Below, piece by piece: positions 29,722 through 45,694 of a stretch of 55,602 nt of DNA. The stretch's first letter is position 1. Each line of letters opens with the position of its first letter. The notes beneath the pieces are model-generated. The model had not been told where the DNA came from, ran no database searches, and worked only from the letters and a program-made list of their open reading frames with translations. The stretch spans positions 1 through 55,602 of the forward strand of contig CATJXY010000015.1 of NCBI GenBank assembly GCA_949744505.1. Direction: 5' to 3'. The translations under genes were made by a program, and so were the position numbers. The DNA is from an uncultured Erysipelotrichaceae bacterium. GTDB taxonomy: Bacteria; Bacillota_I; Bacilli_A; Erysipelotrichales; Erysipelotrichaceae.

Positions 29722-30720
29722 CTAACTTTCACAATGATTACAAAATGATATGTACATCGATGACTTGTGTGTCAAAGTATCTGTATCTTTCATAGATATT
29801 TCATCTACTTTCTTTTTAGAGTCACTAGCTTTCTCTATTTTATCTTTTATACTGCAATAAATCCCACATAAAATGTCCGTTCCCGATGAATGCCCAAAGT
29901 CTTTGACCTCATACATCATCTTTACAAAATTGTCATCATCACAATAAAACGAATTCAATAGTTTTTTTACTGCTTGATTCGCTAATCCATCCGCTGCCAT
30001 TCGCAACATATGATAACTGATTAAATTTGTTTTTGATCTTGCATTCGATAGAACTTCATGATACTTTTCTATAATTTTATGTATATCCATTTTTAAAGCT
30101 TGACAGTAAAAAATATCACTCAATATCAATCCACATAACATATCATCAAAACTCGGAGTTAATCCGACACCCAATCCAATTAAATTTTGTGTTTGGGTAA
30201 CAAAATCAACTTGAGTCTTATAAGATTTTTGCCAAGCAATTATATCTTCGTAAATTATTTGATTCAATGAATTTAATTGCGAATTCATTATAAAAGGGTA
30301 CATGCCATCATGTCTTCCATTTTGTAACAAAAATAAAGATAGTTCTTTAAACCTTTTTTCCACTCTTTCCCAATCCATTTCTAAGCAAAGATTCTCACTT
30401 GATCCATCATAAATTTCAAAATCCCGCAAATCAATTTCCTTATCCTCATTTAAGAAAATTTTCCCACTACTAAGAAGGATTTTCTCTTTATCAGAAATTT
30501 GAGGAAGACTCGGAAGCATGATACTACATGGCATCATGGTTTTGGTATTATCTAAGATCGTTATCAATCGGTCATTTTTATCTATGAGATTTATAGAGTG
30601 TTCAAAAAGAAAATGAACTTGTAGTTCTCTTTCATTTTTATAACTCTCTTCTAATAGCTGTTTACATATCATCTTATTTAACATATTAACAAAAACAGAA
30701 GTATTCCAATCAAGCCACAT
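29722..30720 (-). CDS. allH: DUF2877 protein, AllH/YlbF-like carbamoyltransferase subunit
   Basis: Up to 332 residues. The two DUF2877 signatures are clear: GLGVGLTPSFDDMLCGLI (about 188-205) and GHSSGTDILCGIY (about 280-292). In E. coli AllF, AllG and AllH together form oxamate transcarbamylase, which moves a carbamoyl group to phosphate during allantoin use; this is the AllH-like part. The start is uncertain: GTG/ATG options at 30720, 30684 and 30672 all overlap the permease gene, and none has a strong ribosome site, so coupling to the permease is likely. The C-terminal tail has three extra cysteines (CNHCES and nearby) of unclear meaning. Confidence 0.82.
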   Translation of the reverse strand: MWLDWNTSVFVNMLNKMICKQLLEESYKNERELQVHFLFEHSINLIDKNDRLITILDNTKTMMPCSIMLPSLPQISDKEKILLSSGKIFLNEDKEIDLRDFEIYDGSSENLCLEMDWERVEKRFKELSLFLLQNGRHDGMYPFIMNSQLNSLNQIIYEDIIAWQKSYKTQVDFVTQTQNLIGLGVGLTPSFDDMLCGLILSDIFYCQALKMDIHKIIEKYHEVLSNARSKTNLISYHMLRMAADGLANQAVKKLLNSFYCDDDNFVKMMYEVKDFGHSSGTDILCGIYCSIKDKIEKASDSKKKVDEISMKDTDTLTHKSSMYISFCNHCES

Positions 30721-32273
30721 AGAATTAATGCTATCGGGAATGACTTACGTAAAATTTTTCCTTCCTGACCGATAATAGAAGCGGTTGTCGCCCCCAATAT
30801 AAGATTGCTTGTGCTTATCGAATTTCCTATAGAAGCTCCCGCTGCTTGTGCTGCCAAAATCGCAACGACCTTATAATCTAAAAGAACTGCGGTTGTTTCT
30901 TGAAATTTACCAAACAAAATACAAGAAGCCATGGTTGAACTCGTCATAAAGGTTCCTAACAATCCGATATAAGGGGCAATCAACGGGTAAAACCCTTGAA
31001 ATACTTTCGATACCCCCATCGCTAATTGCTCGGTTTGGCCACTTCCCGACATAACTTTAGACATCATCAACAAAATCATGATTGACAAAGAAGAAGGAAT
31101 TACTTTTTTCAATGTTCTTTGAAGAACATTTTTTGTACTGCGTATCGGTAAATATTTTTTATGTATGTAATAACAAGCACTCATCACTGAAGCTCCCATT
31201 AAAAATGTTCCTGCATGAACTAATAATTTAATCGGTGAATATTTATCCACCGCACTATTAATAATCCCATATCCTGTTACTGTTTCTTTAAACGCAAAAC
31301 CGATTTCCCAACTACTGAGAAAATGATGAATCGGTTTGATCATAAGGCAGGTTATAGCCAAAATTGTCAGAATAATATAAGGTAGAAAGGCTTCTATTAA
31401 AGTCATCGAACTTTTATGTTGTGTCTTCAAAACAACTTCTCGATTCATGATTTCACTGTTTTCAATCTTCCATGGTTTATTATACATAGGTAGTTTATTC
31501 AAAAGAAAGACAGCAACAATGCCAATCACTGTCGGTATAAAGCATGCAACGGTTGGATTGACTTGACTAAGTAGAATTTCGCCCCCTCCTTGAATCAAAC
31601 TGATTACTAAGATTGCGAAAAAGCCTTTCTTTAACCCCTCTTTTTTACCATAAATCCAACAAACTATAAGACCATTCAAAAAATTAATAATCGCCAAAAA
31701 ACAGGCAATCCATAAAGCCGTTGAAAAGTATTGTTCACTATATAAAACAATTCCTGTTGTCTCTACTAACGCATCCCATGCCGCAGCTAATGTTCCGAAC
31801 GTTGCTCCCCAAGCATGTCCGATCATCGGAATCAAAACTGCATAAAGCGGTTTTACCCCAATTCCAATCAACAATGGCGCACCTACGGCAATCGGGACAC
31901 CAAACCCTGTAATTCCTTGCATAAAACTAACAAATCCAAGTCCGATGATCAAAATCTGCATGAGTTCATTTTGGCACCATTTTGACATTTTTTCTTGAAA
32001 TACCGCCATTGCATTTACTTCATTGCTAATCTCATAAATCAAAATTGCGAAAATGATGACCAAAATAATCGAAAGAGCACTCCACATCCCTTTTAAACAT
32101 TCATTCAACAGAAGTTCAAAGGGTGCTTTATAAAACACTACAGCACAAACAGATGCAATGATAAATCCGACAAAAGCTGCTTTATAAGCGGGAATTTGTT
32201 TTCCCACCATCAAAATAAGCAAAGCAAGAATCGGTAAAAATGCAATGAACCAGAGGGAAATATGAATAGGCAT
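30678..32273 (-). CDS. LctP-family (L-lactate permease type) transporter
   Basis: 531 residues, about 12-14 membrane helices. It carries the LctP-type block MQGITGFGVPIAVGAPLLI followed by PMIGHAWGATFGTLAAAW, and a C-terminal TSSTMASCILFGKFQE and GNSISTSNLILGATTA. Family members move lactate or glycolate; in this cluster the cargo may be a substrate or product carboxylate such as a ureido acid or oxamate. It lies between allG and allH. Its ribosome site GGAGAA is inside the allG stop region five bases upstream. Confidence 0.85.
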   Translation of the reverse strand: MPIHISLWFIAFLPILALLILMVGKQIPAYKAAFVGFIIASVCAVVFYKAPFELLLNECLKGMWSALSIILVIIFAILIYEISNEVNAMAVFQEKMSKWCQNELMQILIIGLGFVSFMQGITGFGVPIAVGAPLLIGIGVKPLYAVLIPMIGHAWGATFGTLAAAWDALVETTGIVLYSEQYFSTALWIACFLAIINFLNGLIVCWIYGKKEGLKKGFFAILVISLIQGGGEILLSQVNPTVACFIPTVIGIVAVFLLNKLPMYNKPWKIENSEIMNREVVLKTQHKSSMTLIEAFLPYIILTILAITCLMIKPIHHFLSSWEIGFAFKETVTGYGIINSAVDKYSPIKLLVHAGTFLMGASVMSACYYIHKKYLPIRSTKNVLQRTLKKVIPSSLSIMILLMMSKVMSGSGQTEQLAMGVSKVFQGFYPLIAPYIGLLGTFMTSSTMASCILFGKFQETTAVLLDYKVVAILAAQAAGASIGNSISTSNLILGATTASIIGQEGKILRKSFPIALILCGLIGILLFLLIC

Positions 32274-32278
32274 AAAAT

Positions 32279-33706
32279 TTATTCTCCCAATTGTTCATGG
32301 ACAAAAACACGTAACGCTTCTTCAAAAATCTCCATTGGTGGCTGAGCAATCCCTGCACCAACCTGACCGATACCCGGCTTTTTATGTGCCATTCCGGTAT
32401 TGATTACAGGCAAAATTCCGGTTTCCACGATTTTTCTTATATCAAAACCATTTGGAACTCCTTCAAAATTTAAATTCGGCATCGGTAAATTATAATTCTT
32501 TGCCACGGTAATTTCACCCATAGATTGAGAATATTCAATTGCTTTACTGACACTTCCGGCTCCGACAAAATTAACAACCGCCGGAGAACATCCCATAGCA
32601 CATCCACCGATTCCGATACATTCGGTAATGGAGCTATCGCCCATATCCCCATTCGCATCTTTTTCACTAAACCCCGGGAAATATAAACCGACCGGCATTT
32701 TAACAGGAGCGGTAAACCAACGATATCCTAAAGAACTGATGTTCAGGCCAAAATCAACGCCATTACGACTGAGGGCAGTCACTACCGTACTCTTTTTCAC
32801 ATTTCTTGCCGCATCCATGATGCTTTTAGAACTTGCCATCGCCAGATTCAAGAAGAACTGATCGTTTTTCTTAACCAAAAATTCAATAACCTCATGAGCA
32901 TACGGTTTCCCATTTACAACATCCTGTATTTCACCACATAATTGTTTGTAAAATTGTAAGCTGGCCGCAACATTCCGTTGATGCATTTCATCACCCATTG
33001 CCAATGCCTGAGCCATGACATTTTTCAAATTTAATCCTCCTGCTTTTTTTACCGCTTCATCTAAAACAGGAGCCAATACTTTTTCAATCCATCGCAAACG
33101 TTCTATGACCTTAGGACCGTTCGCTCCAAATCTCATAACTTCCCCGATACCTTCATTAATCGTACAATAGGCACGATTCTTATATTTCTCATTTTCCACT
33201 ACAAATACCGGCATAGAAGAAGTAATCATCCCCGTCATCGGACCTACAGCATGATGATGATGGTTGCAGTCAAATTGAATCTTTCCTTCCAAAATCAATT
33301 TTTCTGCTTCTTCTTCATCTTTTGCCCACCCCTCATAAATCATGGCTCCGACGACAGCCCCTTTCATCGGACCACACATCTCGTTATATTCGATTGGTGG
33401 ACCGGCATGTAAAATCATATGATCGACCAACCCCGGAACAACTTCTCTTGCCGGTCTTACTGCTAATAAAACAGGCTGACCACTCATGATAATATCCACG
33501 ACTTCTTTATTTGCCGCATCAATTTCTTCACTATGTAACTCACATTTAAACAACAAGTCCACCAATTCCGTATTCCCGCTTGCCGGTGGTGTCCACTTAA
33601 CATGAGTTATCTTCCCACCGATATTATCAATACTATCAGAAAAGGACTTAAGTCCGATATTCACAACATCGACTTCTTCCTTAAATAAATTTCTTGCATC
33701 AGACAT
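32279..33706 (-). CDS. allG: DUF1116 protein, AllG/YlbE-like carbamoyltransferase subunit
   Basis: 475 residues from ATG 33706, set by AAAGGAG nine bases upstream. DUF1116 hallmarks include VKWTPPASGNTELVDLL, NEMCGPMKGAVVGAMIYEGWA, NHHHHAVGPMTGMI and CIGIGGCAMGCSPAVVNFVG. The run of histidines NHHHHAVGPM is typical of the family and could bind metal. E. coli YlbE (AllG) is one of three subunits of oxamate transcarbamylase. The gene overlaps the end of the allF-like gene by 8 bp, and the permease follows. Confidence 0.9.
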   Translation of the reverse strand: MSDARNLFKEEVDVVNIGLKSFSDSIDNIGGKITHVKWTPPASGNTELVDLLFKCELHSEEIDAANKEVVDIIMSGQPVLLAVRPAREVVPGLVDHMILHAGPPIEYNEMCGPMKGAVVGAMIYEGWAKDEEEAEKLILEGKIQFDCNHHHHAVGPMTGMITSSMPVFVVENEKYKNRAYCTINEGIGEVMRFGANGPKVIERLRWIEKVLAPVLDEAVKKAGGLNLKNVMAQALAMGDEMHQRNVAASLQFYKQLCGEIQDVVNGKPYAHEVIEFLVKKNDQFFLNLAMASSKSIMDAARNVKKSTVVTALSRNGVDFGLNISSLGYRWFTAPVKMPVGLYFPGFSEKDANGDMGDSSITECIGIGGCAMGCSPAVVNFVGAGSVSKAIEYSQSMGEITVAKNYNLPMPNLNFEGVPNGFDIRKIVETGILPVINTGMAHKKPGIGQVGAGIAQPPMEIFEEALRVFVHEQLGE

Positions 33707-35264
33707 GATCACACTCTCCTTTATTTTGTTTCATGATATCCAAACACAGCTTGATTGCTTCTTCATTGCTGGAAGCAACAAGGATTCCTGCCTCCTGAAG
33801 CTTCTTTACTTGTGTAGAATAAACTTGAAAATCTTCTTCCGTTCCACATACCGAAGTTACAACAAGCGGAATTTGGTCGCATTCTTTTCTCGTACTCATC
33901 ACTGCATCCGCAATGACTTGTGCCGGATCTTCAAATGAACCATAACCAATTACACAATCGGTTAAAACAACTGCTACTTCTTTATCTTGCAATTCTTGTT
34001 TGATACGCTTTACTTTTTCAGTCGGATCAATCATCGGATGAGGCTTTCCTACAGTAAATTCATCTTCTCCCATATCCAAAAACAGATTCTTCATCGATTT
34101 TCTGACATTCTCCAATTTATTTACACCTTTCATTGGGGTATTAGAATATAAATCAGATAAACATTTTCTCGCAAAATACATAGCCTCATAACATAAACTT
34201 CCGCCACTGTAAATTCCTCTTAGATATTTTCTTTCTTGGCTCAAGTTTGCAATTTCATCACTCAACTTCTTCTGATCCAATGTACAAATTTCTTCCGGAC
34301 ATTCATGAAGCCCACTTAATTCTAATGCTGCAATTGCCGCCCTCTTTAAAGAATCAAAACCTTGTCCTCCGGCTTCTTCAATTAAACTATAATCTTCATT
34401 CCCAGCAAAATTAACAACAACCGGCTTATTCGTAGAACGGATAAAAGATGCGATTTTATTTTGGACTTCCATGCAAGGTGGTTTCGATACAATTAAAATG
34501 ACTTGAGTTTCCTCATCTTCCTTTAATAATTCCAAAGCATCCATCATCGTAATTCCACCGATTTCCTTTTTCGGATCTCTTCCCCCTGTTCCGATAGCTT
34601 GTGAAATACCCCCGTGATTACGATGAATAATGGAAGTTACTTCTTGTATTCCTGTTCCGGAAGCCCCTACAACACCGATACTTCCTTTTCTTATGTTGTT
34701 CGCAAAAGCTAAAGGAACTTGATTGATAATAGATGTACCGCAATCCGGTCCCATTACCAACAAGCCTTTTTCATGTGCTTTTTGTTTTAAAGCCAATTCG
34801 TCTTCAATGCTGATATTATCGGAATAAAGCATGATATTCATGCCTTTGCTCAGTCCTTTCGCTGCTTCATATTTGGCATAATCTCCCGCACATGACAACA
34901 TGAGGACATTGGCATTTTTATCTTCTTTTAATGCCTGTTCCAATCTTTTGATTTGACGGGTTTCATTTGATTCATTTTGAGTTGAAACTGATGTACTTAA
35001 CAATTCTTTTGCCTTTACAATTGAATCATTCAATACCTTCTCATTCTCTGCTTTAATTGAAATAATCAAATCATCAGACTTAGCCGCTTTTACTTGATCA
35101 TTCGATAAACCGCTTTTTAAAAATAAATCTTTATTTCTATCTGTACCCATCATGGCACTCGCTTCAATTATCCCCTCCATTGAACATATTTCACTGGAGA
35201 TTTTCATCAAAAAAACAGAATCCCGGTATGTATTATTTAATACAATTGCCCCTAAACTTTCCAT
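33699..35264 (-). CDS. allF: FdrA/AllF-like acyl-CoA-synthetase-fold carbamoyltransferase subunit
   Basis: 521 residues from ATG 35264 (TTG at 35279 is a weaker start; GAGG precedes). The architecture is that of succinyl-CoA synthetase alpha: an N-terminal ferredoxin-like part with ICSMEGIIEASAMMGTDRNK, a CoA-binding Rossmann domain with GPDCGTSIIN and IGVVGASGTGIQEVTSIIHRNHGG, GTGGRDPKKEIGG, and a C-terminal ligase domain. FdrA (now AllF) in E. coli belongs to oxamate transcarbamylase. Directly upstream is the dihydroorotase-like gene (4 bp gap). Confidence 0.9.
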   Translation of the reverse strand: MESLGAIVLNNTYRDSVFLMKISSEICSMEGIIEASAMMGTDRNKDLFLKSGLSNDQVKAAKSDDLIISIKAENEKVLNDSIVKAKELLSTSVSTQNESNETRQIKRLEQALKEDKNANVLMLSCAGDYAKYEAAKGLSKGMNIMLYSDNISIEDELALKQKAHEKGLLVMGPDCGTSIINQVPLAFANNIRKGSIGVVGASGTGIQEVTSIIHRNHGGISQAIGTGGRDPKKEIGGITMMDALELLKEDEETQVILIVSKPPCMEVQNKIASFIRSTNKPVVVNFAGNEDYSLIEEAGGQGFDSLKRAAIAALELSGLHECPEEICTLDQKKLSDEIANLSQERKYLRGIYSGGSLCYEAMYFARKCLSDLYSNTPMKGVNKLENVRKSMKNLFLDMGEDEFTVGKPHPMIDPTEKVKRIKQELQDKEVAVVLTDCVIGYGSFEDPAQVIADAVMSTRKECDQIPLVVTSVCGTEEDFQVYSTQVKKLQEAGILVASSNEEAIKLCLDIMKQNKGECDHV

Positions 35265-35283
35265 ATTCTTATTCCTCAACCTT

Positions 35284-36594
35284 CTAAAAAGCCTTTTCCA
35301 CTTGTTTCAAAATATTCCAATCACGACAAACAATTTCTCCCCCAATAATTGTTAAGGTAACTTTCCCAATCATTTCATCTCCATCATAAGGGTTATTTGA
35401 AGATTTGCTTTTAAATTCTTTTAAATCTACGACCCATTTCTTATTCGGATCAAATACCGTAATATCGGCGTCAGCTCCAATCGATAAAGTTCCACGATTC
35501 GCAAGTCGCATGATTCTAGCCGGATTCACTGTCATACAACGAATAATGTAAGAATAGTCCGCATAACCCAATCGTACCATTTCCAATGCCAAAGGAAGCG
35601 TTGTTTCAAACCCGGAAAGTCCAAACAAATTGGTTGCGGTAATTCCACCCTCTATTTCACTATCTGCATAAGGACAATGGTCAGTCGCAATCACATCAAT
35701 TAATCGCTCTTTTATTCCCTGACGAATTCCCTCGACATCTTTAACTCCTCTAAAAGGTGGCTTAACTTTTGCCCGAACCCCTTTTTCTTTAACGATTTCT
35801 TCTGTTCTTGAAAATTGATGCGGAATCAATTCACATGTAAAATTAACACCTCGTTGTTTAAATAAGCGAACTAAATCAATTGAGCGTTCACTTCCTAAAT
35901 GAGCAATGTGCATGTGTCCGTTGATTTCTTCTTGAATAATCAAATTTCTTGCAATCTCCACATCTTCGGCTACCGAAGAAATCCCCGGTAAATTCATTTC
36001 TTTTACCAACTTTCCCGCATTCACAACTCCTTTACCGGTATAAGCTTTATCTTCACAATGTAAATCAACAACTAAATCCACTTCTTTTGTTGCCTCTAAA
36101 ATATCACGCATCATCACTGCCTCTTTAATGGCATTTCCATCATCCGAAAAAGCAACCACTCCGGCTTCTTTCAAAGCTTTCATATCGACGATTTCTTCAC
36201 CTTTTCTGCCAACGGTTACCGCTCCAAATGGATACAACCGGCACAACGCACTTTCTTTTGCCCTTTTGAAAAACTCTTCAACCATTTTCACATTATCAAT
36301 GATCGGATCGCTGTTTGGCATCACCCCGATCGATGTATACCCACCGCAAACAGCACTGCTTGTTCCGGTATAAAATGTTTCCCTTTGCGGTTCATTAAAA
36401 TCTCTTAAGTGCGCATGCATTTCAACAAACCCCGGGGCAACGATCTGCCCGCTTACATCTTCTACAATCGCTTCTTCATCAATTATATTTTTTTCAATCT
36501 TGCTGATTTTCCCATCCACTATCAATAAATCCAAAAAATCATCCACATCATTGGCAGGATCAATTACCCGTCCATTTTTCAATAACAATTTCAT
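35284..36594 (-). CDS. Dihydroorotase-like cyclic amidohydrolase
   Basis: 436 residues of the class I dihydroorotase/allantoinase/hydantoinase superfamily. The metal motif is HAHLRD (H60, H62, R64), then VMPNSDP (N93, substrate contact in dihydroorotases), VAFSDDG (D151/D152), DLHCED, HIAHLGS and ATDHCPYAD. Sequence style is closest to PyrC dihydroorotase, but there are no pyrimidine-synthesis genes here; neighbours are carbamoyltransferase subunits and carbamate kinase lies in the same run. I infer that it opens a cyclic ureide (dihydroorotate, hydantoin or similar) to an N-carbamoyl compound for breakdown. It could still be the cell's only PyrC. Substrate not fixed by sequence. Confidence 0.88.
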   Translation of the reverse strand: MKLLLKNGRVIDPANDVDDFLDLLIVDGKISKIEKNIIDEEAIVEDVSGQIVAPGFVEMHAHLRDFNEPQRETFYTGTSSAVCGGYTSIGVMPNSDPIIDNVKMVEEFFKRAKESALCRLYPFGAVTVGRKGEEIVDMKALKEAGVVAFSDDGNAIKEAVMMRDILEATKEVDLVVDLHCEDKAYTGKGVVNAGKLVKEMNLPGISSVAEDVEIARNLIIQEEINGHMHIAHLGSERSIDLVRLFKQRGVNFTCELIPHQFSRTEEIVKEKGVRAKVKPPFRGVKDVEGIRQGIKERLIDVIATDHCPYADSEIEGGITATNLFGLSGFETTLPLALEMVRLGYADYSYIIRCMTVNPARIMRLANRGTLSIGADADITVFDPNKKWVVDLKEFKSKSSNNPYDGDEMIGKVTLTIIGGEIVCRDWNILKQVEKAF

Positions 36595-36613
36595 GCCATA
36601 CTCTCGCTTTCTT

Positions 36614-37150
36614 CTATTTCACTAAAGCTTTTATAATACGATATCCATAGTACAATGCATAAAGTACTAAAAATCCTGTTCCAATTACCATGATAATATT
36701 GTTCGTTTTTTTCAGTTCTTCCAAATTAGGAATAGAAAGATATAAATTTAAAAATAACAGAACAATCAAAACGACTAAAGCAATTAACACAATGATATTT
36801 TTCATTCTCGGTTGCTGTTTCAAATCATCAAATGATTCAAGCTTCTTTCCAAATTCCACATTCGTTATAATAGGCAACTTAGATAAGAACATCTTCCGAT
36901 AACAAGCCTCACTTACCAAAAGTGTAATAAACCCAACACCTAAACCAAGTTTCCAATCTATTTGAAGCATGATCAAAACACATATCGCAAAAGATAATAA
37001 ATACCGTCCTGCAAATACATTGTATTTATTTTCATCCTTGGATGTCAAAACATAAGCTATATTCTTTTTAGGTACTCCGATATATTGTTTTCCATATTCA
37101 TCAACATACAAATCCAGTGTTTTTTTATGTAAATTAGTATTTTTCTTCAT
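36614..37150 (-). CDS. Membrane protein of unknown function
   Basis: 178 residues with four predicted helices: a close pair at about 48-82 (LLSFAICVLIMLQI and GFITLLVSEACY) and a second pair at about 117-138 and 148-168. N-terminal 45 residues are polar and cytoplasmic-looking. No recognised domain. Its start lies 17 bp inside the end of the upstream membrane-protein gene, so the two are translated together. They sit between the PTS/carbamate kinase genes and the amidohydrolase; their role in that context is unknown. Confidence 0.65.
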   Translation of the reverse strand: MKKNTNLHKKTLDLYVDEYGKQYIGVPKKNIAYVLTSKDENKYNVFAGRYLLSFAICVLIMLQIDWKLGLGVGFITLLVSEACYRKMFLSKLPIITNVEFGKKLESFDDLKQQPRMKNIIVLIALVVLIVLLFLNLYLSIPNLEELKKTNNIIMVIGTGFLVLYALYYGYRIIKALVK

Positions 37151-37691
37151 GTTTCTTGTTCCTTTTATTCATTATTTTCTTAATATCCTTAATTCCTAAA
37201 ATGACTTCATCATTATTCTGTCTGAATTGAGCCATTTCTTTTTCATTTTTTTCCTTATTTCCAATTGTCTTCATGAGCAAATTATTCACTTTGCCTGCTT
37301 GTGTTATCGGATAATTTATCTGATTTCCATCCATGAGATTGATAATCAAAGCATTTCCTTCTGATTTTTCAATTTCCCAATCCATAATCTGTTCATTATC
37401 GATCAGAATACCCTTCTCATGATCCAAACGATCTGTTAATACAATCTTATCTTCATATACTCGGATCGTCGTATATTGTTTGACTCGTATAAAAATAATC
37501 AACGCACAAATCATATTGATTGATCCGATCACAAATAAAAACCAATAATTATGATAAAAAACGCCTTTACAAATCATGAGTAAAGAACCTATAAACCAAA
37601 TTATTGCCAATCCGGTCGGTCTATTTTTCACAAATCCGATTAACGGTAACTTTTCAAAAGATTCATCTTTAAAATAAATTCTATCCTTCAT
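37134..37691 (-). CDS. Membrane protein with PH-like cytoplasmic domain
   Basis: 185 residues from ATG 37691, seven bases after GGAGGG. Two helices form a hairpin at about 28-70. A strand-rich segment follows (TIRVYEDKIVLTDRL, ALIINLMDGNQINYPIT), as in bacterial PH-like or YcxB-like proteins, then a basic C-terminus ending KIMNKRNKKHEEKY. It overlaps the next membrane-protein gene by 17 bp. The pattern recalls the protein at 18141. No function assigned. Confidence 0.65.
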   Translation of the reverse strand: MKDRIYFKDESFEKLPLIGFVKNRPTGLAIIWFIGSLLMICKGVFYHNYWFLFVIGSINMICALIIFIRVKQYTTIRVYEDKIVLTDRLDHEKGILIDNEQIMDWEIEKSEGNALIINLMDGNQINYPITQAGKVNNLLMKTIGNKEKNEKEMAQFRQNNDEVILGIKDIKKIMNKRNKKHEEKY

Positions 37692-37712
37692 CAACAAGCC
37701 CTCCCATGAAAC

Positions 37713-37803
37713 AAAAGAGATAAAACTGTCTCGTTTAACTCAACAAGCTTTATCTCACCAATTCAAATATGATTATTAAAATTTATAGATAAAGCCATTA
37801 TCT
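37713..37803 (-). terminator. Hairpins between the PTS/kinase half and the carbamoyltransferase half
   Basis: Two hairpins fall in the only sizeable gap of this gene run. One is AGATAA-TGGCT-TTATCT on the minus strand (37803-37787), overlapping the stop of the Cys-rich gene and followed by an AT-rich tract. The other is GAGATAAA/TTTATCTC with a loop of about 24 nt, followed by TTTTGTTTC, ending near 37710. Either could end the upstream transcript or act as a processing stem. Both are weak. Confidence 0.4.
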
Positions 37804-38414
37804 TATAAGAATTCCTTTATCAATAATGCGGCTCTTACCGGATTACATGCTCCGCATACACATGGTTTAGCCACTTCTATGCCGGCTTGTTCCAAAGTCA
37901 TTTTTCCACTTTTTACTTTTTCTGCCAAATCATAAATTAATGTAGCGGTAATCAGCCCATGTCCACACATCGTCATGATATTCATGCATTTCTCTTCCGG
38001 TAATTTTTCTACATTTCCCCAGACTCCTAAAGATCTTGCGACAGTATGTCTTTGAAGTCCCGCTTCTTGACAACACTCCTTCGTATGTTCCATAAGTCCG
38101 GTTACAACAACACTCATCCCATTTTGTAAATCTTTAATTTCCTTTAATGTCTTGATTACATTCTCTTTTTTATCAAAGGTTAGATTCAAGACCGCTCCAT
38201 CTTTCATTCTTTCTTTCAATCCATCCAATCCTACCGAATAGATATTTCCGGATTGTGTATCTCCGGCATTCACAGCACCGTTTTTAATTCCGATATCCAA
38301 AATATCAATTAATTTCTGTTTTGATCCTTCTTTATTGACTCCTTTAACCGGCATCGCTAAGATAATGTAATCATTCTCTAATGTATTCCCTGTTCTATGT
38401 AATGTATGTGTCAT
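37803..38414 (-). CDS. Unrecognised Cys-rich cytoplasmic protein partnered with ferredoxin protein
   Basis: 203 residues. I do not recognise the family. It opens MTHTLHRTGNTLENDYIIL and contains VTGLMEHTKECCQEAGLQRHTVA, a second cysteine cluster CMNIMTMCGHGLI, and a C-terminal CVCGACNPVRAALLI in which three cysteines are spaced C-x-C-x2-C. Seven cysteines plus several histidines in a protein this small suggest metal or Fe-S binding. No signal or membrane segment. It starts 3 bp after the ferredoxin-type gene, so the two are surely coexpressed and may form one complex, perhaps an oxidoreductase or a carbamoyl-handling enzyme. Confidence 0.75.
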   Translation of the reverse strand: MTHTLHRTGNTLENDYIILAMPVKGVNKEGSKQKLIDILDIGIKNGAVNAGDTQSGNIYSVGLDGLKERMKDGAVLNLTFDKKENVIKTLKEIKDLQNGMSVVVTGLMEHTKECCQEAGLQRHTVARSLGVWGNVEKLPEEKCMNIMTMCGHGLITATLIYDLAEKVKSGKMTLEQAGIEVAKPCVCGACNPVRAALLIKEFL

Positions 38415-38417
38415 TTC

Positions 38418-39143
38418 TTATCTCTCCTTATCAAAATCATAAAGGGGTCTGCCTAGTCCTACATTCGTTTTTCCACCTGCATACATGGACAATCCCATCT
38501 TTTCTATTGCTTCATCAAAATAAGCTGTTCCATCCTCTTTTAAAAGAGAGGATACGCCGACAGAGAATACCGTATCCACTTCTTTCGACAATTTTTGACA
38601 AGATTTTAATACTTCTTCCAATTTATCCGCATCGATCAGTGCCTCTACAATTGCCGATAAAACAAATAAAGGTCTTACATCTTCTTGAATTTCTCCAGTT
38701 GTTGTATCCTTCATGACATAAGTAACCGGATTTAAAGGTTCAAAATATGCTCCGTGTTTAGCAAGCGCCATACATGCCTTTTCTACATCAATAAATGTTG
38801 TGCCGGTAAATGGTCTTCCCATCTCAAGACATATTCCGACTTTTTGATGTCCGATTCTTCCGGTAACCTCATTGGTCTTCATTTCCGCTGTTCCTCTGCC
38901 TGAAACTCCTGATTTTTCATCTACACCTGTCGGGCAACTTAGTGATTCAGCTAAAGTTCTTGGCCAGCTCAATTCTTCTTTTGCTAAAGCATTTACCGGA
39001 CATCCTTCACGAATGCAGTTGTAACATTCTACACATTTCAAAGGATCCACTTTTGCTTTATGATCTTCTATTTTAATCGCCTTCATCGGACAGAATTTTG
39101 CACATTTTCCACATCCGACACAACTTTCTTCTCTAATTCTCAT
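38418..39143 (-). CDS. Two-[4Fe-4S] ferredoxin domain protein with unique C-terminal domain
   Basis: 241 residues from ATG 39143, set by GAGGAGGAAAAGGA and overlapping the carbamate kinase stop as ATGA. The first 60 residues form a bacterial ferredoxin with CVGCGKCAKFCP and CVECYNCIREGCP, giving two [4Fe-4S] clusters. The remaining 180 residues are unrecognised: GICLEMGRPFTGTTFIDVEKACMALAKHG, a helical middle and GGKTNVGLGRPLYDF. It would carry electrons for a redox step, but the partner is not obvious; the Cys-rich protein 3 bp downstream is the best candidate. Confidence 0.82.
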   Translation of the reverse strand: MRIREESCVGCGKCAKFCPMKAIKIEDHKAKVDPLKCVECYNCIREGCPVNALAKEELSWPRTLAESLSCPTGVDEKSGVSGRGTAEMKTNEVTGRIGHQKVGICLEMGRPFTGTTFIDVEKACMALAKHGAYFEPLNPVTYVMKDTTTGEIQEDVRPLFVLSAIVEALIDADKLEEVLKSCQKLSKEVDTVFSVGVSSLLKEDGTAYFDEAIEKMGLSMYAGGKTNVGLGRPLYDFDKER

Positions 39144-40087
39144 TCCTTTTCCTCCTCGATAATTGTTCCTGCCTGACCCTTGATTGCCATGCATGCATGC
39201 TCCTCATCTGTTATGATAGAAAGGCGTCCTTTTTTAGATGTGGCAAACGCAAGTGCCGCTTCCACTTTGGGCAGCATACTTCCTTCATAAAAATGACCCT
39301 GTTCTTTTAAATTTATTAATTCTTTTGTCGATATTTTATGAATTTTTTGTTCATTCTTCTTTCCAAAATTAATACAAACATTTTTAACTCCGGTTAAAAT
39401 CAATAAAATATCCGCATTTAACTCTTCCGCTAAAATCTCAGAAGCATAATCTTTATCAATTACCGCTTCAATTCCTTTATAGCCGAATTCTTCCTCAATA
39501 ACGGGAATGCCACCGCCTCCTGTCGAAACCACGATAACACCTTGATCTACAAGATCTTTAATTACATCCGCTTCAACTATTTTTTCAGGTTTAGGTGATG
39601 GAACAACTCTTCGATACCCCTTACCGGAATCATTTTTAAAAATTACAGAATCCTTATTAGGTAATTTTTTCACTTGTTCTTGGCTGTAAAATGGTCCTAC
39701 CGGTTTAGTCGGATCCGCAAATGCTTTATCATTCGCATCAACAACGACCTGAGTAATGACAGTACATACAGATTTTTGAATATTCCTCGAATTCAATTCC
39801 GCTTTTAAGGCACTTTGAATATGATAACCAATCATGCCCTGTGTAGATGCACCATGCAAATCTAATGTTAAAGGAGGTGTAATTTCCTTGGCAGCTTCAT
39901 TTTGAAGCATTAATCTTCCTACTTGGGGTCCATTCCCATGAGAAATCACGACTTCATGTCCCATTTCAATCAAATCCGCAATTTTTTTAACTGCTTTTCT
40001 TATATTTTTAAGTTGATTTTGTCCGTTAGCTTCTTCATTTTTCTTTTCCAGTGCATTTCCACCCAGTGCTACAACAATAACACTCAT
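39140..40087 (-). CDS. arcC: Carbamate kinase
   Basis: 315 residues, usual family length. It makes ATP from carbamoyl phosphate and ADP, giving CO2 and ammonia. Motifs are VVALGGNALEKK (N-terminal phosphate loop), VISHGNGPQVG, LDLHGASTQGMIGY, YRRVVPSPKPE, VSTGGGGIPV and EGSMLPKVEAA. The ATG overlaps the PTS IIA stop (ATGA), and its stop overlaps the ferredoxin gene start (ATGA), so all three are coupled. No arginine deiminase genes are present, pointing to another carbamoyl-phosphate source, most simply the AllFGH-like enzyme downstream. Confidence 0.96.
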   Translation of the reverse strand: MSVIVVALGGNALEKKNEEANGQNQLKNIRKAVKKIADLIEMGHEVVISHGNGPQVGRLMLQNEAAKEITPPLTLDLHGASTQGMIGYHIQSALKAELNSRNIQKSVCTVITQVVVDANDKAFADPTKPVGPFYSQEQVKKLPNKDSVIFKNDSGKGYRRVVPSPKPEKIVEADVIKDLVDQGVIVVSTGGGGIPVIEEEFGYKGIEAVIDKDYASEILAEELNADILLILTGVKNVCINFGKKNEQKIHKISTKELINLKEQGHFYEGSMLPKVEAALAFATSKKGRLSIITDEEHACMAIKGQAGTIIEEEKE

Positions 40088-40491
40088 GATCCTTCACCAA
40101 AAAAGCTGTTGTTATTGAAAATGTGTCCGGAATTTTGAGAAACTTCTTTCATTTTCTCAGCCACTTCCATCATGTCATCTGTATCTAAAAAAGCGAGTTC
40201 TAACAACATTCCCAAACATAATCCTGTTACAATATTATATTTATGTTCTTTCAATAAACTGGATGAGCTATTAAAAGGAGTACCCCCCAATATATCACAT
40301 ATCACGATAAAAGGCTTATCCTTTATTTTTTCAATTTCAGCTCTGATTTTACTCGAAAAACTCAAAGGATCATCCTCGGCAAGAAGTGGAATTGGAATTA
40401 ATTTATCATTTTTTCCGGTAATCATTTCTGCACTTTTTATAATTTCCTCACAAAATCTTCCATGTGTTACAATCAATACTTTATAATCCAT
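40084..40491 (-). CDS. PTS mannose-family IIA component
   Basis: 135 residues. The phosphorylated histidine is H10 in KVLIVTHGRF, which accepts phosphate from HPr, and the family block VICDILGGTPFNSS follows. The ATG has GAGGAGG upstream. It lies away from the IIB-IIC-IID genes, with the M28-like gene between, and its stop overlaps carbamate kinase. Coupling of a PTS IIA to carbamate kinase is uncommon and hints at linked control. Confidence 0.9.
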   Translation of the reverse strand: MDYKVLIVTHGRFCEEIIKSAEMITGKNDKLIPIPLLAEDDPLSFSSKIRAEIEKIKDKPFIVICDILGGTPFNSSSSLLKEHKYNIVTGLCLGMLLELAFLDTDDMMEVAEKMKEVSQNSGHIFNNNSFFGEGS

Positions 40492-40515: not shown

Positions 40516-41421
40516 CTATATCAAAGTTTCAATCAGTGCTTTCTCTATATTTTCAAGCCGTTCGACATTCACTTTAAAATCATTTTTATTCCTAGTATTT
40601 TCAATATAAACCATATCCTCTTGCATCTCTGCCGAAAATACCATTAATGAATTTTCAAACATGCCTACTACTGTTCTCTCGTATTCTTCTTGTGTCATCT
40701 TAATCAGTTTTGCAGATTTAAGATGATCTTGAAAATTTTTCGCAAGTTCAAATGTACTTGGATTCGCACATATAACCAAATCAGTTCCGTATCCGATATT
40801 ATTTAATATGATTATTTTTTTATTTTGAATTTCTTCAATCATTTTAATATCCCGATATCCGCTTGTCAGCATTGCTGCATTATCCACTAAAATAAGTGCG
40901 GTTTTCTTCAATTTTTTTGACATCATTATTTTATATAGCACTGCAATTGCCGCAGAATTCGCATTCATATTTATCTTCTTTTCGACTCCTTTAGCCATTT
41001 TTGCAGCCAAGAATCCGAGAATGATATCAAATAAATAAACAAGTACTCTAATAAAGAAATTCGTTGTTTTGATTTTCAGTGTTAATATCACAATAAGGGC
41101 AATCAATGAAATTGAAATCATCGCGTAAATGAGAGAATTTAATCGTTCTTTTTTTGCGACATTCTTTGCATCTAAAGGTGTATAGCGATAATTTTTTAGT
41201 AGCATCAAATCTGCTGTATCGTAATAAGCAAGAACAACAATTGCGGCAGTTTCTAAATTTCCAACACATAAATGATGTCCGCTACCACCAAAAATCTTAT
41301 ATTCAATCTTTTTCTCTTTCAATTTATTAACAAGATAATTGATAAAATTATTTTTATTCTTAGTCTTATATCTTTTGGAAAAATAGACTCCCATTTCCGT
41401 TAATGATTGTTTCAACTCCAT
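40516..41421 (-). CDS. Membrane protein resembling a catalytically dead M28 peptidase
   Basis: 301 residues from ATG 41421 (after GAGGG). I do not recognise a named family, but the pattern follows M28 aminopeptidases. GNLETAAIVVLAYYDT parallels the usual 'NVIA...GAHYDT' with the zinc His changed to Tyr. NMNANSAAIAVLYKIM parallels 'DDNASGVAxLLEIA' with the metal Asp lost, and ALILVDNAAMLTSGYRDI parallels 'xFVFFDGEExGLLGS' with the Glu pair lost. Two membrane helices (about 95-150) are inserted between them. It lies between PTS IID and IIA genes, so may be a binding or assembly protein for the PTS. Inference from pattern only. Confidence 0.6.
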   Translation of the reverse strand: MELKQSLTEMGVYFSKRYKTKNKNNFINYLVNKLKEKKIEYKIFGGSGHHLCVGNLETAAIVVLAYYDTADLMLLKNYRYTPLDAKNVAKKERLNSLIYAMISISLIALIVILTLKIKTTNFFIRVLVYLFDIILGFLAAKMAKGVEKKINMNANSAAIAVLYKIMMSKKLKKTALILVDNAAMLTSGYRDIKMIEEIQNKKIIILNNIGYGTDLVICANPSTFELAKNFQDHLKSAKLIKMTQEEYERTVVGMFENSLMVFSAEMQEDMVYIENTRNKNDFKVNVERLENIEKALIETLI

Positions 41422-41504
41422 TTTGTTCAACCACCCTCTATATAAATAGGAATAAGTAGTTGATTTATCTTTCAATAAATCAACTTACTTAATCCTTTTT
41501 TATC

Positions 41505-42329
41505 TTAAACTAATCCAACAAGTGCCAATAAAATACAAACTGCCAGCGATCCTAAAACCAACCACGCAAAGTTTACTTTCTTGCCCACGAAATAGTAATA
41601 AATAGCTACAGCAATTAAAGTTAACATTCCCGGAATTGCGGCATCCAGCTTATCTTGTAAGAAATAAACCGATTCACCGACAGACCATGAATAACTGAGA
41701 CCGAATGTAGTATATTTAGAAGCCATGCCACCCATGATTACCATCGATGCAAGAGTACATGCACTCGTCAAAGCACCGAGCCATGGAGTACCAAGCAATT
41801 TAGCAATCGCCTGTTTACCATATTTATAACCGGTATTACAGAAAATAACGATTAATGGGGTATTGATTAAGATACTGTACACTAAAATGAATCCCAAACC
41901 TGCCCAAGTCGCTCCATCCAAAGCTAATCCGATGAAGAATACCATAATTAACTGACGAACAGTTGAACCCATCAAAGAGTCACCCATACCGGATAGTGGA
42001 CCCATGATACTTGATTTAATCTGACGAATCGTTTCCGGATCAAAATCAGCTCCGTTGGCATATTGTTCTTCCATGGATAAATAGATTCCAAATGCTAAAG
42101 AGGCAAATGTCTGTTCACACAACCAATAATCTCTTGTCCTCAACAAAGCCGCTTGAAGTGCTTCTTCATCATCTTGATAGAGATACTTTAAAGCCGGTAA
42201 TGCAGCAACTGTCCAAGAATTGACATAACCACGGTCATATCCGAAAGAGACCTGATTCCAAGTATGCTGTTTAAATAAAGTTCTGATAATTAAATTTTTT
42301 GGTAACGCTCTATATTCTTTTTCTGACAT
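41505..42329 (-). CDS. PTS mannose-family IID component
   Basis: 274 residues. Family features include the N-terminal TWNQVSFGYDRGY region, the GPLSGMGDSLMGSTVRQ block (about 112-128) and two to four C-terminal membrane helices ending in ILLALVGLV. IID forms the membrane channel together with IIC. The ATG has a GGGGTGAA upstream. It is separated from IIC by 10 bp. Confidence 0.94.
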   Translation of the reverse strand: MSEKEYRALPKNLIIRTLFKQHTWNQVSFGYDRGYVNSWTVAALPALKYLYQDDEEALQAALLRTRDYWLCEQTFASLAFGIYLSMEEQYANGADFDPETIRQIKSSIMGPLSGMGDSLMGSTVRQLIMVFFIGLALDGATWAGLGFILVYSILINTPLIVIFCNTGYKYGKQAIAKLLGTPWLGALTSACTLASMVIMGGMASKYTTFGLSYSWSVGESVYFLQDKLDAAIPGMLTLIAVAIYYYFVGKKVNFAWLVLGSLAVCILLALVGLV

Positions 42330-42339
42330 AATTTCACCC

Positions 42340-43095
42340 CTATCCCATTAATTCCTTGTTCATATAAATTGTTAAATAAGCTAAGATGAAACCGAAAATA
42401 GCAACACCCAAAATGGATAGATCAAAGAATTCCATCATAAAGAATCCCAAGATAAAGAACGGAATTGTTTTTGTTGTACCGATAATTCTGACATACATCG
42501 CAAATCCCAATGCAGGCAACAATTTACTCATTGCGGTTAGTCCGTTACTAAACCATGCCGGTAATGTATTTAACAGAATTTCAACAAAGTTCTGCCCAAA
42601 ATATAAAGCAACAAAGCATAGCGGAGCACTCAAAAGTACTGCAAATAAGAACGGATAAAGTGTAGAACCAAGTTCGACTTTACGTAAATTTCTTTCTTCA
42701 ATTGCTTTTTCAACAAATGGAATCCAAATTGCTGTATTCATTGTTCTTAAGAATGTAACAATAAATACACCCAATGTAGCTGCCGGGACTGCAATTAATA
42801 ATGTTTCTTCATAGGAATATCCAAATTTAATCGCCATCGGAACGGCAATACACGTCGCCATGAAAGTATCTGCCGGTAATGCGCCTCCATAAAAGGTCAT
42901 TCCCAAAAATAAAGTATTTAATTGAGCTCCAACCAAAGCTCCGGTTGCTGCATCCCCCATTATCGCACCAATGATCAATCCTCCAGTAAGGCCATGATAG
43001 AACCATACCCATAAATAAGTATGTAAGATGTGAGATGAACCAATACCATAAAGCAATGATATGATAATAATTCGAATAAGATACAATGTATCCAT
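42340..43095 (-). CDS. PTS mannose-family IIC component
   Basis: 251 residues, about seven membrane helices. The family blocks GLTGGLIIGAIMGDAATGALVGAQL and MTFYGGALPADTFMATCIAVPMA are present. IIC and IID carry the sugar, and IIB phosphorylates it on entry. The ATG follows GGAGGAAG. Sugar identity cannot be read from IIC alone. Confidence 0.94.
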   Translation of the reverse strand: MDTLYLIRIIIISLLYGIGSSHILHTYLWVWFYHGLTGGLIIGAIMGDAATGALVGAQLNTLFLGMTFYGGALPADTFMATCIAVPMAIKFGYSYEETLLIAVPAATLGVFIVTFLRTMNTAIWIPFVEKAIEERNLRKVELGSTLYPFLFAVLLSAPLCFVALYFGQNFVEILLNTLPAWFSNGLTAMSKLLPALGFAMYVRIIGTTKTIPFFILGFFMMEFFDLSILGVAIFGFILAYLTIYMNKELMG

Positions 43096-43148: not shown

Positions 43149-43643
43149 TTAAAAACCCGCATTTTTGCATCCTGTTTCAACGCTGACAGGTTCGCCTTCA
43201 TCCGGCATCAATTGGAAATATGCATTCATTCCACTTGCTGCCATTTCTCTTAGCTTCTCAGCATCTTCTTTTGAGATATACACTAATTTGTTTGCCAATT
43301 TCATATCCGGACCATCACATTTAATAGACCCGATTGCTAATTCCGGTATCTCAAGTCCTGCTTTAAAGGACTTATAAGCATTAGCGATACTCGCAAACAA
43401 CAGCATATATCGAGAAGTAAACCCATTATTCTGTTGTTTTAAAACAGCCTGTTCAACAGTAATGATTTCTACTTTAGCTCCGCATGCCTGAGATGAAATT
43501 TGATAGATACTTTTCATAAATTCATCTTTTGCAACTTCATCATCGACGATGCAAATATTGGAAATATTCAAATGTCTTACAAGCTTTGCACCGACCTGAC
43601 CGTGAACTAGTCTACTGTCAACTCTGGAATATACGATTGCCAT
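43149..43643 (-). CDS. PTS mannose-family IIB component
   Basis: 164 residues. The phosphorylated histidine is H14 in SRVDSRLVHGQV. The fold blocks VDDEVAKDEFMKSIYQ and GSIKCDGPDMKLANKLVYIS match the mannose/sorbose IIB family. The ATG follows AAGGAGG. The aldolase gene lies 109 bp upstream, a gap without a convincing terminator. Confidence 0.94.
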   Translation of the reverse strand: MAIVYSRVDSRLVHGQVGAKLVRHLNISNICIVDDEVAKDEFMKSIYQISSQACGAKVEIITVEQAVLKQQNNGFTSRYMLLFASIANAYKSFKAGLEIPELAIGSIKCDGPDMKLANKLVYISKEDAEKLREMAASGMNAYFQLMPDEGEPVSVETGCKNAGF

Positions 43644-43752: not shown

Positions 43753-44622
43753 TTAAGCTTTATTTGTAGAACCGAATACATCCATGTAATATTCGATTTT
43801 TTCTCTATATCCCTGATGGAAATTTGTATGGAAATCCAGTCTTCCTTTCTTTGGATTTTCATTTAATTTTTCAACGGCTAATTCAGAGCCTGATTTAGCG
43901 ATATCCGTTGAAACATTAATCTTACAAATACCACGAGTACATGCTTTCGCCATATTCTCATCACCCGTACCACTTCCGCCGTGAAGAACAAGTGGAATCG
44001 GTGTGATTTCGGCAATCTTATCCAATAATTCAAAATTGATATGAGGAATGATATCCTTTGCATACGGTCCATGTGCATTTCCGATTGAAACTGCCAAGCA
44101 ATCTACTCCTGTTTTTTCAATAAAGTCGGCTACATCATTCGGATTTGTTTCTGTTGTATGAGAATACTTCCCATCAATTTTAAAGTTCGGATCCCCCATA
44201 CCAACACATCCAAGTTCAGCTTCAACACTGATACCGATTGCATGAGCAGCTTCCACTACTTGTTTGGTGATTGCCACATTTTCTTCATAAGGACGAGCAC
44301 TCGCATCAATCATAACAGAGCCAAACCCATAATGAATTCCTCGCATACATGTAGCAAAATCTTTACCATGATCAACATTTAATGCAACCGGAACAGAAGA
44401 TCTCATCGCTCTTTCTCTTGCCACTAACATCACCAGTTCCAAATCAGCATCCTCGGCCACAAAATCATATGTAATATTAAAGTTCAAAATAACAGGTGAA
44501 TTTTTATGTTCTGCCGCTTCAATGGCATGTTTGATTTCATCTGCACTTCTGATTGTCGGAGCAATCACTCCGTAATGTCCTTCTCTTGCCTTGACAAGAA
44601 TATCTTTCATGTTTACTAACAT
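43753..44622 (-). CDS. Class II ketose-bisphosphate aldolase (FbaA/GatY/KbaY family)
   Basis: 289 residues. The zinc ligands are H85 (NVDHGKDF), H184 (GNAHGPY) and H214 (LHGGSGTG); the proton-donor Asp is D84; EAELGCVG supplies the glutamate. It cleaves a phosphorylated ketose to glyceraldehyde-3-P or DHAP and a second piece. Within a PTS operon it most likely handles the phosphorylated sugar from this PTS (as GatY or KbaY do) rather than glycolysis. The start has GAGG upstream. The hydroxyacid dehydrogenase gene is 16 bp upstream. Confidence 0.92.
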   Translation of the reverse strand: MLVNMKDILVKAREGHYGVIAPTIRSADEIKHAIEAAEHKNSPVILNFNITYDFVAEDADLELVMLVARERAMRSSVPVALNVDHGKDFATCMRGIHYGFGSVMIDASARPYEENVAITKQVVEAAHAIGISVEAELGCVGMGDPNFKIDGKYSHTTETNPNDVADFIEKTGVDCLAVSIGNAHGPYAKDIIPHINFELLDKIAEITPIPLVLHGGSGTGDENMAKACTRGICKINVSTDIAKSGSELAVEKLNENPKKGRLDFHTNFHQGYREKIEYYMDVFGSTNKA

Positions 44623-44638: not shown

Positions 44639-45694
44639 CTATTTATTTACTTGGAATTTTAAAGCTTCGCCTTTTAAATAACGTTCAACTTCTTCCTGCA
44701 TTGCCGCAATCGTTAATCTTGTCCAATCTCCTGCTGTTCCGGCAATATGCGGAGATAAGATTACATTATCCAATTCAAAGAATTTTGAATCTAGCGGTAA
44801 CGGTTCTTCATCATATACATCTAAGGCCGCTCCGCGAATTTGATGATTCTGTAATGCTTCAAGCATCGCTTCCTCATTAATCAGTCTTGACCTGGCTGTA
44901 TTGACTATAAATGCATCCGGTTTCATCATAGCGAATTGCTCTTTACCAATCATATCCTTTGTTTCTTCCATATAACGTGCATGCATCGTCACACAATCCG
45001 ATTCTTTTAATAACTGTTCTAAAGATACTGCCTCAACTCCCATTTTTTCCGCAGCTTCTTTATTGATGAACGGATCATATGCAAGTAATCGACAACCAAA
45101 TCCGCTTAATCTTTGTGCCACTTTTCTTCCGATAATTCCAAATCCCACAAGACCGATTGTCATGTCTTTAATAAGCTTTGGATTTTTAGGGAATGTTCTG
45201 TTAAAGTCTTTAGTAATTACCATATCTTTTTTAGTAATGCATCGATGGAATGCCAAGATAAGGGATACAGTATAGTCTGCAACCGGTTCACTTACTCTTC
45301 CCGGAGAATTACATACGATGATTCCTTTTTCTTTCGCAGCATCCATTTCAACATTCTCTGTTCCGCTTCTCATGATTCCGATCATTTTCAAACCCGGTAT
45401 TGCATCCATCATTTTTTTATTAACGGCACTGTAATGGGCAATAATAACTTCGGAGTCCTTTAAACTTTCCAAAAACTCAGGTTCATAATCAAAAACTGTC
45501 GGCCCCTCAAATTCAATACGATGATCCGGAGTCGTGTAGTTGCTTCCTTCCGGAAGAATTCGATATAACTTATCTGTTACCAATTGCACATCTGCATCCA
45601 ACTCTTTCACAAAAGAAAATTGGTCCAACACATCCTTGATCGTTGCCTCGTCACTCGCAAATCTCCCATCAGAAATTATTGTTACTTTTCTCAT
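44639..45694 (-). CDS. D-isomer-specific 2-hydroxyacid dehydrogenase
   Basis: 351 residues, first gene of the PTS operon. The NAD-binding loop is GLVGFGIIGRKVAQRL; the catalytic Arg is in NTARSRLINEEA and the catalytic His in LSPHIAGT, with substrate-binding residues in MRSGTENV and GRVSEPVADY. It reduces a 2-keto acid or oxidises a D-2-hydroxy acid using NAD. The pairing with a PTS and a class II aldolase suggests it acts on a sugar-acid intermediate. It is divergent from the PRD activator. Confidence 0.9.
   Translation of the reverse strand: MRKVTIISDGRFASDEATIKDVLDQFSFVKELDADVQLVTDKLYRILPEGSNYTTPDHRIEFEGPTVFDYEPEFLESLKDSEVIIAHYSAVNKKMMDAIPGLKMIGIMRSGTENVEMDAAKEKGIIVCNSPGRVSEPVADYTVSLILAFHRCITKKDMVITKDFNRTFPKNPKLIKDMTIGLVGFGIIGRKVAQRLSGFGCRLLAYDPFINKEAAEKMGVEAVSLEQLLKESDCVTMHARYMEETKDMIGKEQFAMMKPDAFIVNTARSRLINEEAMLEALQNHQIRGAALDVYDEEPLPLDSKFFELDNVILSPHIAGTAGDWTRLTIAAMQEEVERYLKGEALKFQVNK

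Follow-up and report, generated by a model that had tools for sequence, protein, structure and literature searches.

The window analysed here (the whole stretch of DNA, 55,602 nucleotides) carries an operon of a gut-type Bacillota bacterium whose probable role is to open a cyclic urea compound and, by way of AllFGH, to gain ATP from its carbamoyl group. The minus-strand gene set from 40087 to 29722 contains a carbamate kinase, a dihydroorotase-family amidohydrolase, AllF, AllG, a lactate-permease-family transporter and AllH; all four gene classes named here by the initial annotation were recovered, by family profile matches and by conserved order in a relative. Its treatment of these genes as a complete pathway proved too narrow. 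The interval also holds two iron-sulfur genes (FeSA and FeSB) and two small ORFs that it left unnamed, and the apparent transcription unit runs upstream to 45694, adding PTS genes, an aldolase and a 2-hydroxyacid dehydrogenase, with a PTS-type regulator flanking it. It is somewhat probable, taking both points together, that 29722-40087 makes up the downstream half of a single catabolic operon (45694 to 29722, minus strand) and that this operon takes a cyclic ureide through import or release, ring opening, carbamoyl transfer by AllFGH, ATP formation by carbamate kinase and processing of the carbon skeleton. A carboxylated cyclic ureide would be imported via the LctP-type permease, or freed intracellularly from a PTS-imported compound. 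The dihydroorotase paralogue would open the ring to give an N-carbamoyl compound, AllF-AllG-AllH would pass the carbamoyl group to phosphate, and carbamate kinase would yield ATP, ammonia and CO2. The carbon skeleton may be handled by FeSA/FeSB, the hydroxyacid dehydrogenase and the aldolase. The sequence itself establishes the gene identities, the arrangement of the operon, a biosynthetic PyrC located apart from it, a single carbamate kinase and the lack of a further catabolic transcarbamylase, whereas each of these reactions is inferred, the substrate and the part played by FeSA/FeSB most of all.

The upstream part is tightly coupled and, like the interval itself, lies on the minus strand. 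It begins with a D-isomer-specific 2-hydroxyacid dehydrogenase (44639..45694; PF02826/PF00389), followed by a class II ketose-bisphosphate-type aldolase (43753..44622; PF01116, 276 bits) and PTS mannose/sorbose family components IIB (43149..43643; PF03830), IIC (42340..43095; PF03609) and IID (41505..42329; PF03613). A 319-aa ORF without a family at E<0.001 (40516..41475) precedes the mannose-family IIA (40084..40491; PF03610). The regulator is divergent, on the plus strand (45870..47774), and has an HTH, two PRD domains and an EIIA-like domain (Pfam PF00874, PF00359, PF08279). Within the interval the genes run collinearly, separated by short gaps or slightly overlapping, the single exception being a 105-bp gap; tight or overlapping junctions include those of IIA with carbamate kinase (39140..40087; TIGR00746 405 bits, over cut-off) and of carbamate kinase with FeSA. 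The two small ORFs (37134..37697 and 36614..37150) have no family. Between them and FeSB lies a terminator-like hairpin of -15.9 kcal/mol, which counts against the single-operon reading. No riboswitch or other known RNA was found across the operon at E<0.5. GC content (0.36 vs 0.35) gives no sign of foreign origin for the island. In a relative of another genus (G458) the gene order is kept at 45-82% protein identity, most proteins being 61-82% identical; the dehydrogenase orthologue is 62% identical and the regulator orthologue (48%) occupies the same place. Missing from the G458 operon (L021) are the 319-aa ORF and both small ORFs, and its carbamate kinase lies outside the operon, beside an OTC-type gene.

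AllF (FdrA) (33699..35279; NF004760 492 bits; PDB 3dmy E=2.5e-77), AllG (DUF1116) (32279..33712; PF06545 293 bits) and AllH (DUF2877) (29722..30720; PF11392 82.6 bits) all score over their family cut-offs and are contiguous save for the LctP gene between AllG and AllH. AllFGH of E. coli is a proven phosphate-linked carbamoyltransferase (PMC11326118). The allFGHK genes of that organism (oxamate carbamoyltransferase and carbamate kinase, in anaerobic allantoin degradation; PMC11326118, PMC9843812) likewise group AllF, AllG, AllH and carbamate kinase in a single operon, with a cyclic amidohydrolase supplying them from earlier in the pathway. The island differs in having no allantoinase that could be found, its amidohydrolase being a dihydroorotase paralogue, in the addition of the LctP permease, PTS genes and FeSA/FeSB, and in a shifted AllF/AllG boundary, the N-terminal ~50 aa of AllG matching the C-terminus of E. 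coli-type AllF. In targeted searches of the genome, the island carbamate kinase was the only one over the TIGR00746 cut-off, and PyrB was the only OTC/ATC-fold transcarbamylase. AllFGH is therefore the sole plausible source of carbamoyl phosphate in catabolism, and the route from AllFGH to carbamate kinase proposed at the outset stands as the only evident one of this kind. Service of the kinase to an arginine deiminase pathway was ruled out, since such a pathway works with OTC and the genome has PyrB but no OTC. The same logic (a cyclic ureide opened, carbamoyl transferred, ATP made) is shared by cyclic amidohydrolase-carbamoyltransferase-carbamate kinase modules (Barba et al. 2013, PMC4016543) and by the reductive uric acid cluster (PMC12507026), but those systems use ATC/OTC-fold transcarbamylases (UGTCase, YgeW), to which AllFGH is unrelated. 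Against the ureide reading counts the chemistry of the donor, which is an acylurea (oxalurate) for E. coli AllFGH, whereas dihydroorotase-type opening would give an alkylurea, from which transfer is thermodynamically harder.

Not until 2024 was AllFGH recognised as an enzyme, and then for oxalurate only. The present operon and its relatives place the same three subunits with several kinds of ring opener and with carbamate kinase or acetokinases, and these varied partners make the substrate range of AllFGH directly testable. In relatives, AllFGH and carbamate kinase adjoin ring-opening enzymes of the AtzD/TrzD (barbiturase/cyanurate) family. Five loci of the bacterial family (L113, L114, L116, L118, L119) combine AllFGH with AtzD/TrzD-type ring openers, cytosine-deaminase-like enzymes and an LctP permease. 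They share with the island a related AllFGH, permeases 45-50% identical, a ring-opening enzyme and, in some, carbamate kinase; they differ in the barbiturase/cyanurate family of the ring opener, the lack of FeSA/FeSB and PTS, and PucR-like regulators. Elsewhere in the bacterial family AllFGH homologues are grouped with acetokinases and sugar-acid genes, without carbamate kinase, so it is not certain that carbamoyl is the group being transferred.

FeSA (38418..39143) and FeSB (37803..38414, 203 aa) lie mid-operon. FeSA carries two ferredoxin [4Fe-4S] motifs, with Fer4 matching the N-terminal part only, followed by a C-terminal domain without a match; this architecture is conserved in 31 full-length copies. 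FeSB has invariant CGH...CxCG cysteines in 32 aligned copies. Beyond the ferredoxin part of FeSA, the pair matched no family in Pfam or NCBIfam and no PDB sequence, a fold search returned no solved fold at E<0.001, and FeSB had no match in a plasmid search. All 32 copies inspected have the two genes side by side, in many cases next to carboxylate transporters; the pair is widespread in other anaerobes, with up to nine copies in one genome. Tentatively, and as a possibility short of a likely one, FeSA/FeSB may represent a hitherto undescribed type of iron-sulfur enzyme built from two subunits: electrons would enter through 2[4Fe-4S], FeSB would provide a catalytic cluster bound by three cysteines, and the enzyme would process small hydroxy or keto acids across anaerobes. 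Here it would be linked to a route via carbamoyl phosphate, with AllFGH as a member of a general family of phosphorolytic transferases whose products go to carbamate kinase or acetokinase. It was the operon that led to this pair, and knowing its reaction would supply a missing piece in many clusters that degrade carboxylates.

The permease (30678..32273) is present as annotated, matching PF02652 at 240.7 bits, although its type is lactate/glycolate rather than nucleobase permease. It misses the TIGR00795 lctP cut-off (223 vs 341 bits) and is thus a family member and not an assured lactate carrier. With PTS, aldolase, 2-hydroxyacid dehydrogenase and FeSA/FeSB in the operon and a PTS-type regulator beside it, the substrate that induces the operon may be a PTS compound; the PTS and the PTS-type regulator are unexplained by the ureide reading and count against it. 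The locus might instead serve chiefly the use of a PTS sugar or sugar acid, which we consider rather unlikely. AllFGH would then move an acyl or carbamoyl group from a sugar derivative, the amidohydrolase would open an intermediate lactam or cyclic ureide, and the hydroxy or keto acid so formed would be the substrate of FeSA/FeSB. The contiguity of PTS IIABCD, aldolase, dehydrogenase and PRD regulator, conserved with the remainder in two genera, favours such a pathway, as do the 4-bp overlap of IIA with carbamate kinase, the carboxylate transporters and hydroxyacid dehydrogenases adjoining FeSA/FeSB at other loci, and the KDPG-aldolase-like and sugar-kinase-like genes near AllFGH-acetokinase loci. 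The carbamate kinase of the operon nevertheless points to carbamoyl phosphate, and the LctP permease, being separate, suggests another substrate, a carboxylate.

For the ureide reading, the ring opener would be the amidohydrolase (35284..36594; TIGR00857 348 bits, over cut-off), and dihydroorotases top all its matches in a PDB sequence search. The cut-offs of allantoinase and hydantoinase equivalogs were not reached (TIGR03178 209/358 bits, ErtD NF058539 178/650, TIGR02033 162/393). A search of the genome found no other amidohydrolase of the allantoinase kind; an allantoin pathway was ruled out on this ground, in line with the absence of allantoin genes noted initially. With type I dihydroorotase (PyrC) the enzyme shares its family, the metal ligands H60, H62, H179, H232 and D305 (D151 is also kept), and the carboxylate contacts R64 (HxHLR motif) and N94. 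Ligand contacts are made by the Arg, Asn and His of the corresponding motifs in human dihydroorotase (PMC9856072). The island enzymes of this genome and of G458 carry K278 and Y309, where 28 of 28 aligned PyrC-type sequences (27 relatives and the genome's own PyrC) have Asn and His. The human enzyme presumably has Arg (R1661) at the position equivalent to 278, so Lys there is not by itself disqualifying for a PyrC.

A pathway fermenting dihydroorotate, orotate or 5-carboxymethylhydantoin, with N-carbamoylaspartate as intermediate and aspartate and carbamoyl phosphate as products, is distinctly unlikely. It would suit the dihydroorotase membership and the retained carboxylate-binding Arg and Asn; carboxymethylhydantoinase (EC 3.5.2.4), moreover, counts as an orphan activity of an orotate fermenter. 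Opposed to this are the two altered substrate positions and the phosphorolysis of N-carbamoylaspartate, which is strongly uphill. A search of the genome for dihydroorotate dehydrogenase (PF01180) found none, the only match over cut-off being a Dus-like protein; orotate would not be readily reduced and is an unlikely substrate, so that classical orotate fermentation is disfavoured. That the amidohydrolase is a spare or foreign PyrC placed in the operon by chance is highly improbable: it belongs among the homologues of type I dihydroorotase, and G458 has no other dihydroorotase match at E<=1e-30, but the genome has its own PyrC, the island enzymes depart from all 28 aligned PyrC-type sequences at two substrate positions, and PyrB was not found in G458 (88% complete; the one match is the ornithine-type enzyme adjoining carbamate kinase), which makes a biosynthetic role there unlikely. 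The check for another pyrC, named beforehand in the initial annotation, disclosed this second, canonical PyrC on another contig, in pyrB-pyrC-carA-carB, ruling out the island enzyme as sole biosynthetic PyrC; the island paralogue, outside the pyr operon, is 29% identical to it.

The genes that the initial annotation had named at 29722-40087 are all present, on the minus strand, as confirmed by family models: AllH (PF11392), an LctP-family permease (PF02652), AllG (PF06545), AllF/FdrA (NF004760), a dihydroorotase-family amidohydrolase (TIGR00857) and carbamate kinase (TIGR00746). Structure-database matches relate AllF to E. coli FdrA (3dmy) and AllG to the uncharacterised structure 3clq; the AllG N-terminus carries a segment of about 50 residues that is C-terminal in E. 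coli-type AllF. Carbamate kinase is not the first gene of the unit. Co-directional genes upstream of it encode PTS mannose-family IIA, IID, IIC and IIB, a class II aldolase and a D-2-hydroxyacid dehydrogenase, flanked by a divergent regulator with PRD and EIIA-like domains. Junctions are tight (IIA-carbamate kinase -4 bp, carbamate kinase-FeSA -4 bp, FeSA-FeSB +3 bp, amidohydrolase-AllF +4 bp, AllF-AllG -14 bp, AllG-LctP +5 bp, LctP-AllH -43 bp). The sole larger gap in the interval, 105 bp 3' of FeSB, contains a terminator-like hairpin (-15.9 kcal/mol) with a T-rich tail; beyond it lie two small ORFs that belong to no family. Two mutually exclusive hairpins at 37698-37802 share the AGATAAAGC segment, the second preceding the T-rich tail; this pair between FeSB and the small ORFs resembles an attenuator. 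An M81-family MlrC-like metallopeptidase (DUF1485, MlrC_C) lies at 53610-55064, about 6 kb past the operon's regulator.

The operon recurs in the same order in the genome G458, from a different genus of the family: regulator, dehydrogenase, aldolase, IIB, IIC, IID, IIA, FeSA, FeSB, amidohydrolase, AllF, AllG, LctP and AllH. Most proteins compared are 61-82% identical (regulator 48%, LctP 45%). The G458 operon lacks the small ORFs, a 319-aa ORF and carbamate kinase; its amidohydrolase lies directly 3' of FeSB, the corresponding genes abut and the hairpin arrangement is absent. Its carbamate kinase adjoins an ornithine-type carbamoyltransferase away from the operon. AllG was found in 34 of the 316 genomes of the order, and among 26 AllG loci whose neighbourhoods were read, the amidohydrolase adjoins it only in the window and G458. 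In trees the island AllG groups, at moderate support (88/89), with the AllG proteins associated with LctP; AllF has no firm placement.

Most likely, the operon couples import, ring opening and carbamoyl transfer to ATP formation. A carboxylated cyclic ureide would enter via the LctP-type permease, or arise from a PTS-imported compound, and be opened by the amidohydrolase; AllFGH would move the carbamoyl group onto phosphate, carbamate kinase would yield ATP, and FeSA/FeSB, the dehydrogenase and the aldolase would handle the carbon skeleton. In E. coli, AllFGH splits oxalurate with phosphate, giving oxamate and carbamoyl phosphate (PMC11326118). In the window's genome no carbamate kinase but that of the island exceeds the cut-off, and PyrB is the only ATC/OTC-type protein, which leaves AllFGH as the only evident catabolic carbamoyl phosphate supplier. 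The sequence amidohydrolase, carbamoyltransferase, carbamate kinase is already known (PMC4016543, PMC12507026), as is AllFGH; the gene combination and FeSA/FeSB were not found in the literature searched on them and appear new to us.

A reading based on a ureide alone is weakest at the PTS half and its regulator. Orotate fermentation in its classical form is unlikely, since a search of the 97.9% complete genome revealed no dihydroorotate dehydrogenase (PF01180), the sole match over the cut-off being Dus-like. From its gene content the organism is predicted to make dihydroorotate, and an enzyme oxidising it is not evident. The island amidohydrolase is not this genome's biosynthetic PyrC: the search for another pyrC, suggested initially, located one on a different contig (C23; L003, L162), flanked by pyrB and carA-carB, with aro genes 3' of the cluster; its product is 29% identical to the island enzyme.

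In human dihydroorotase, R1475, N1505, R1661 and H1690 contact ligands (PMC9856072). The island enzymes of the window and G458 retain the metal ligands, Arg64 and Asn94, and both have Lys at 278 and Tyr at 309, where all aligned PyrC-type sequences (27 relatives and the genome's own) have Asn and His. Human R1661 is presumably the counterpart of position 278, so Lys there is by itself compatible with dihydroorotate. Combined, the two replacements point to a carboxylated substrate that is not, or not only, dihydroorotate. Retention of the Arg/Asn pair speaks for a carboxylate; the donor of E. coli AllFGH is an acylurea, which would speak for a substrate of the imide type, for instance parabanate. 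These two clues are not yet reconciled.

FeSA (38418..39143, minus strand) has two ferredoxin-type four-cysteine motifs, N-terminal to a C-terminal domain without a Pfam or NCBIfam match; FeSB (37803..38414, minus strand) likewise matches no family in these collections. AlphaFold models built from seven-sequence alignments (mean pLDDT 79 and 83) gave no match to solved folds at E<0.001. FeSB was found only in the window's genome and G458 among 196 genomes sampled from the family, only in the former, bar one marginal match, among 392 genomes of its phylum, and in 15 of 199 genomes of the phylum of a Peptococcaceae MAG (nine copies in one). FeSA lies directly upstream in 32 of 32 copies inspected (29 called by script; L027, L063 and L060 by eye). 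FeSB residues kept in at least 97% include R7, G9, D15, N27, C150, G151, H152, C185, C187, G188 and N191; eight cysteines, R83, T85, E87, K89, N91, T94, E107, R110, K122, E167, K225 and N227 of FeSA are kept in at least 95%. Three invariant FeSB cysteines, together with numerous invariant polar positions, suggest that the pair forms a catalytic complex and does more than carry electrons. The usual neighbours, named by eye from sequence and not by model, are tripartite tricarboxylate or TRAP transporters, hydroxyacid or alcohol dehydrogenases, aldehyde:ferredoxin oxidoreductase, and PdxA-like, glycerate-kinase-like and lactate-racemase-like proteins. In the 2.9 Mb genome G569 (L058-L064), many of nine FeSB copies adjoin TTT or TRAP transporters and several adjoin aldehyde:ferredoxin oxidoreductase.

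In the relatives inspected, AllFGH neighbours include AtzD/TrzD-family (barbiturase/cyanurate) ring openers, cytosine-deaminase-like and isochorismatase-family proteins, permeases or a pseudouridine-glycosidase-type protein, and carbamate kinase accompanies most of these clusters. Clusters without carbamate kinase carry AllF, with or without AllG, and an acetokinase-family kinase (PF00871, 323-341 bits) at L123:9382-13558 and L124:10604-13594, and AllH in addition at L025:5925-12573 and L125:7402-12352; some adjoin KDPG-aldolase-like, sugar-kinase-like or LarA-like genes. The product of these versions is possibly an acyl phosphate in place of carbamoyl phosphate. Loci L118, L119 and L116 each hold two different AllG copies, one with AllF/AllH/LctP and the other beside an AtzD/TrzD-type enzyme, and L116 and L118 also hold xanthine-dehydrogenase-like genes; the three clusters are candidates for an anaerobic oxidative pyrimidine route via barbiturate. 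A single 998-aa open frame matching AllG (L112:4531-7527), whose start resembles AllF, is long enough for a putative AllF-AllG fusion.
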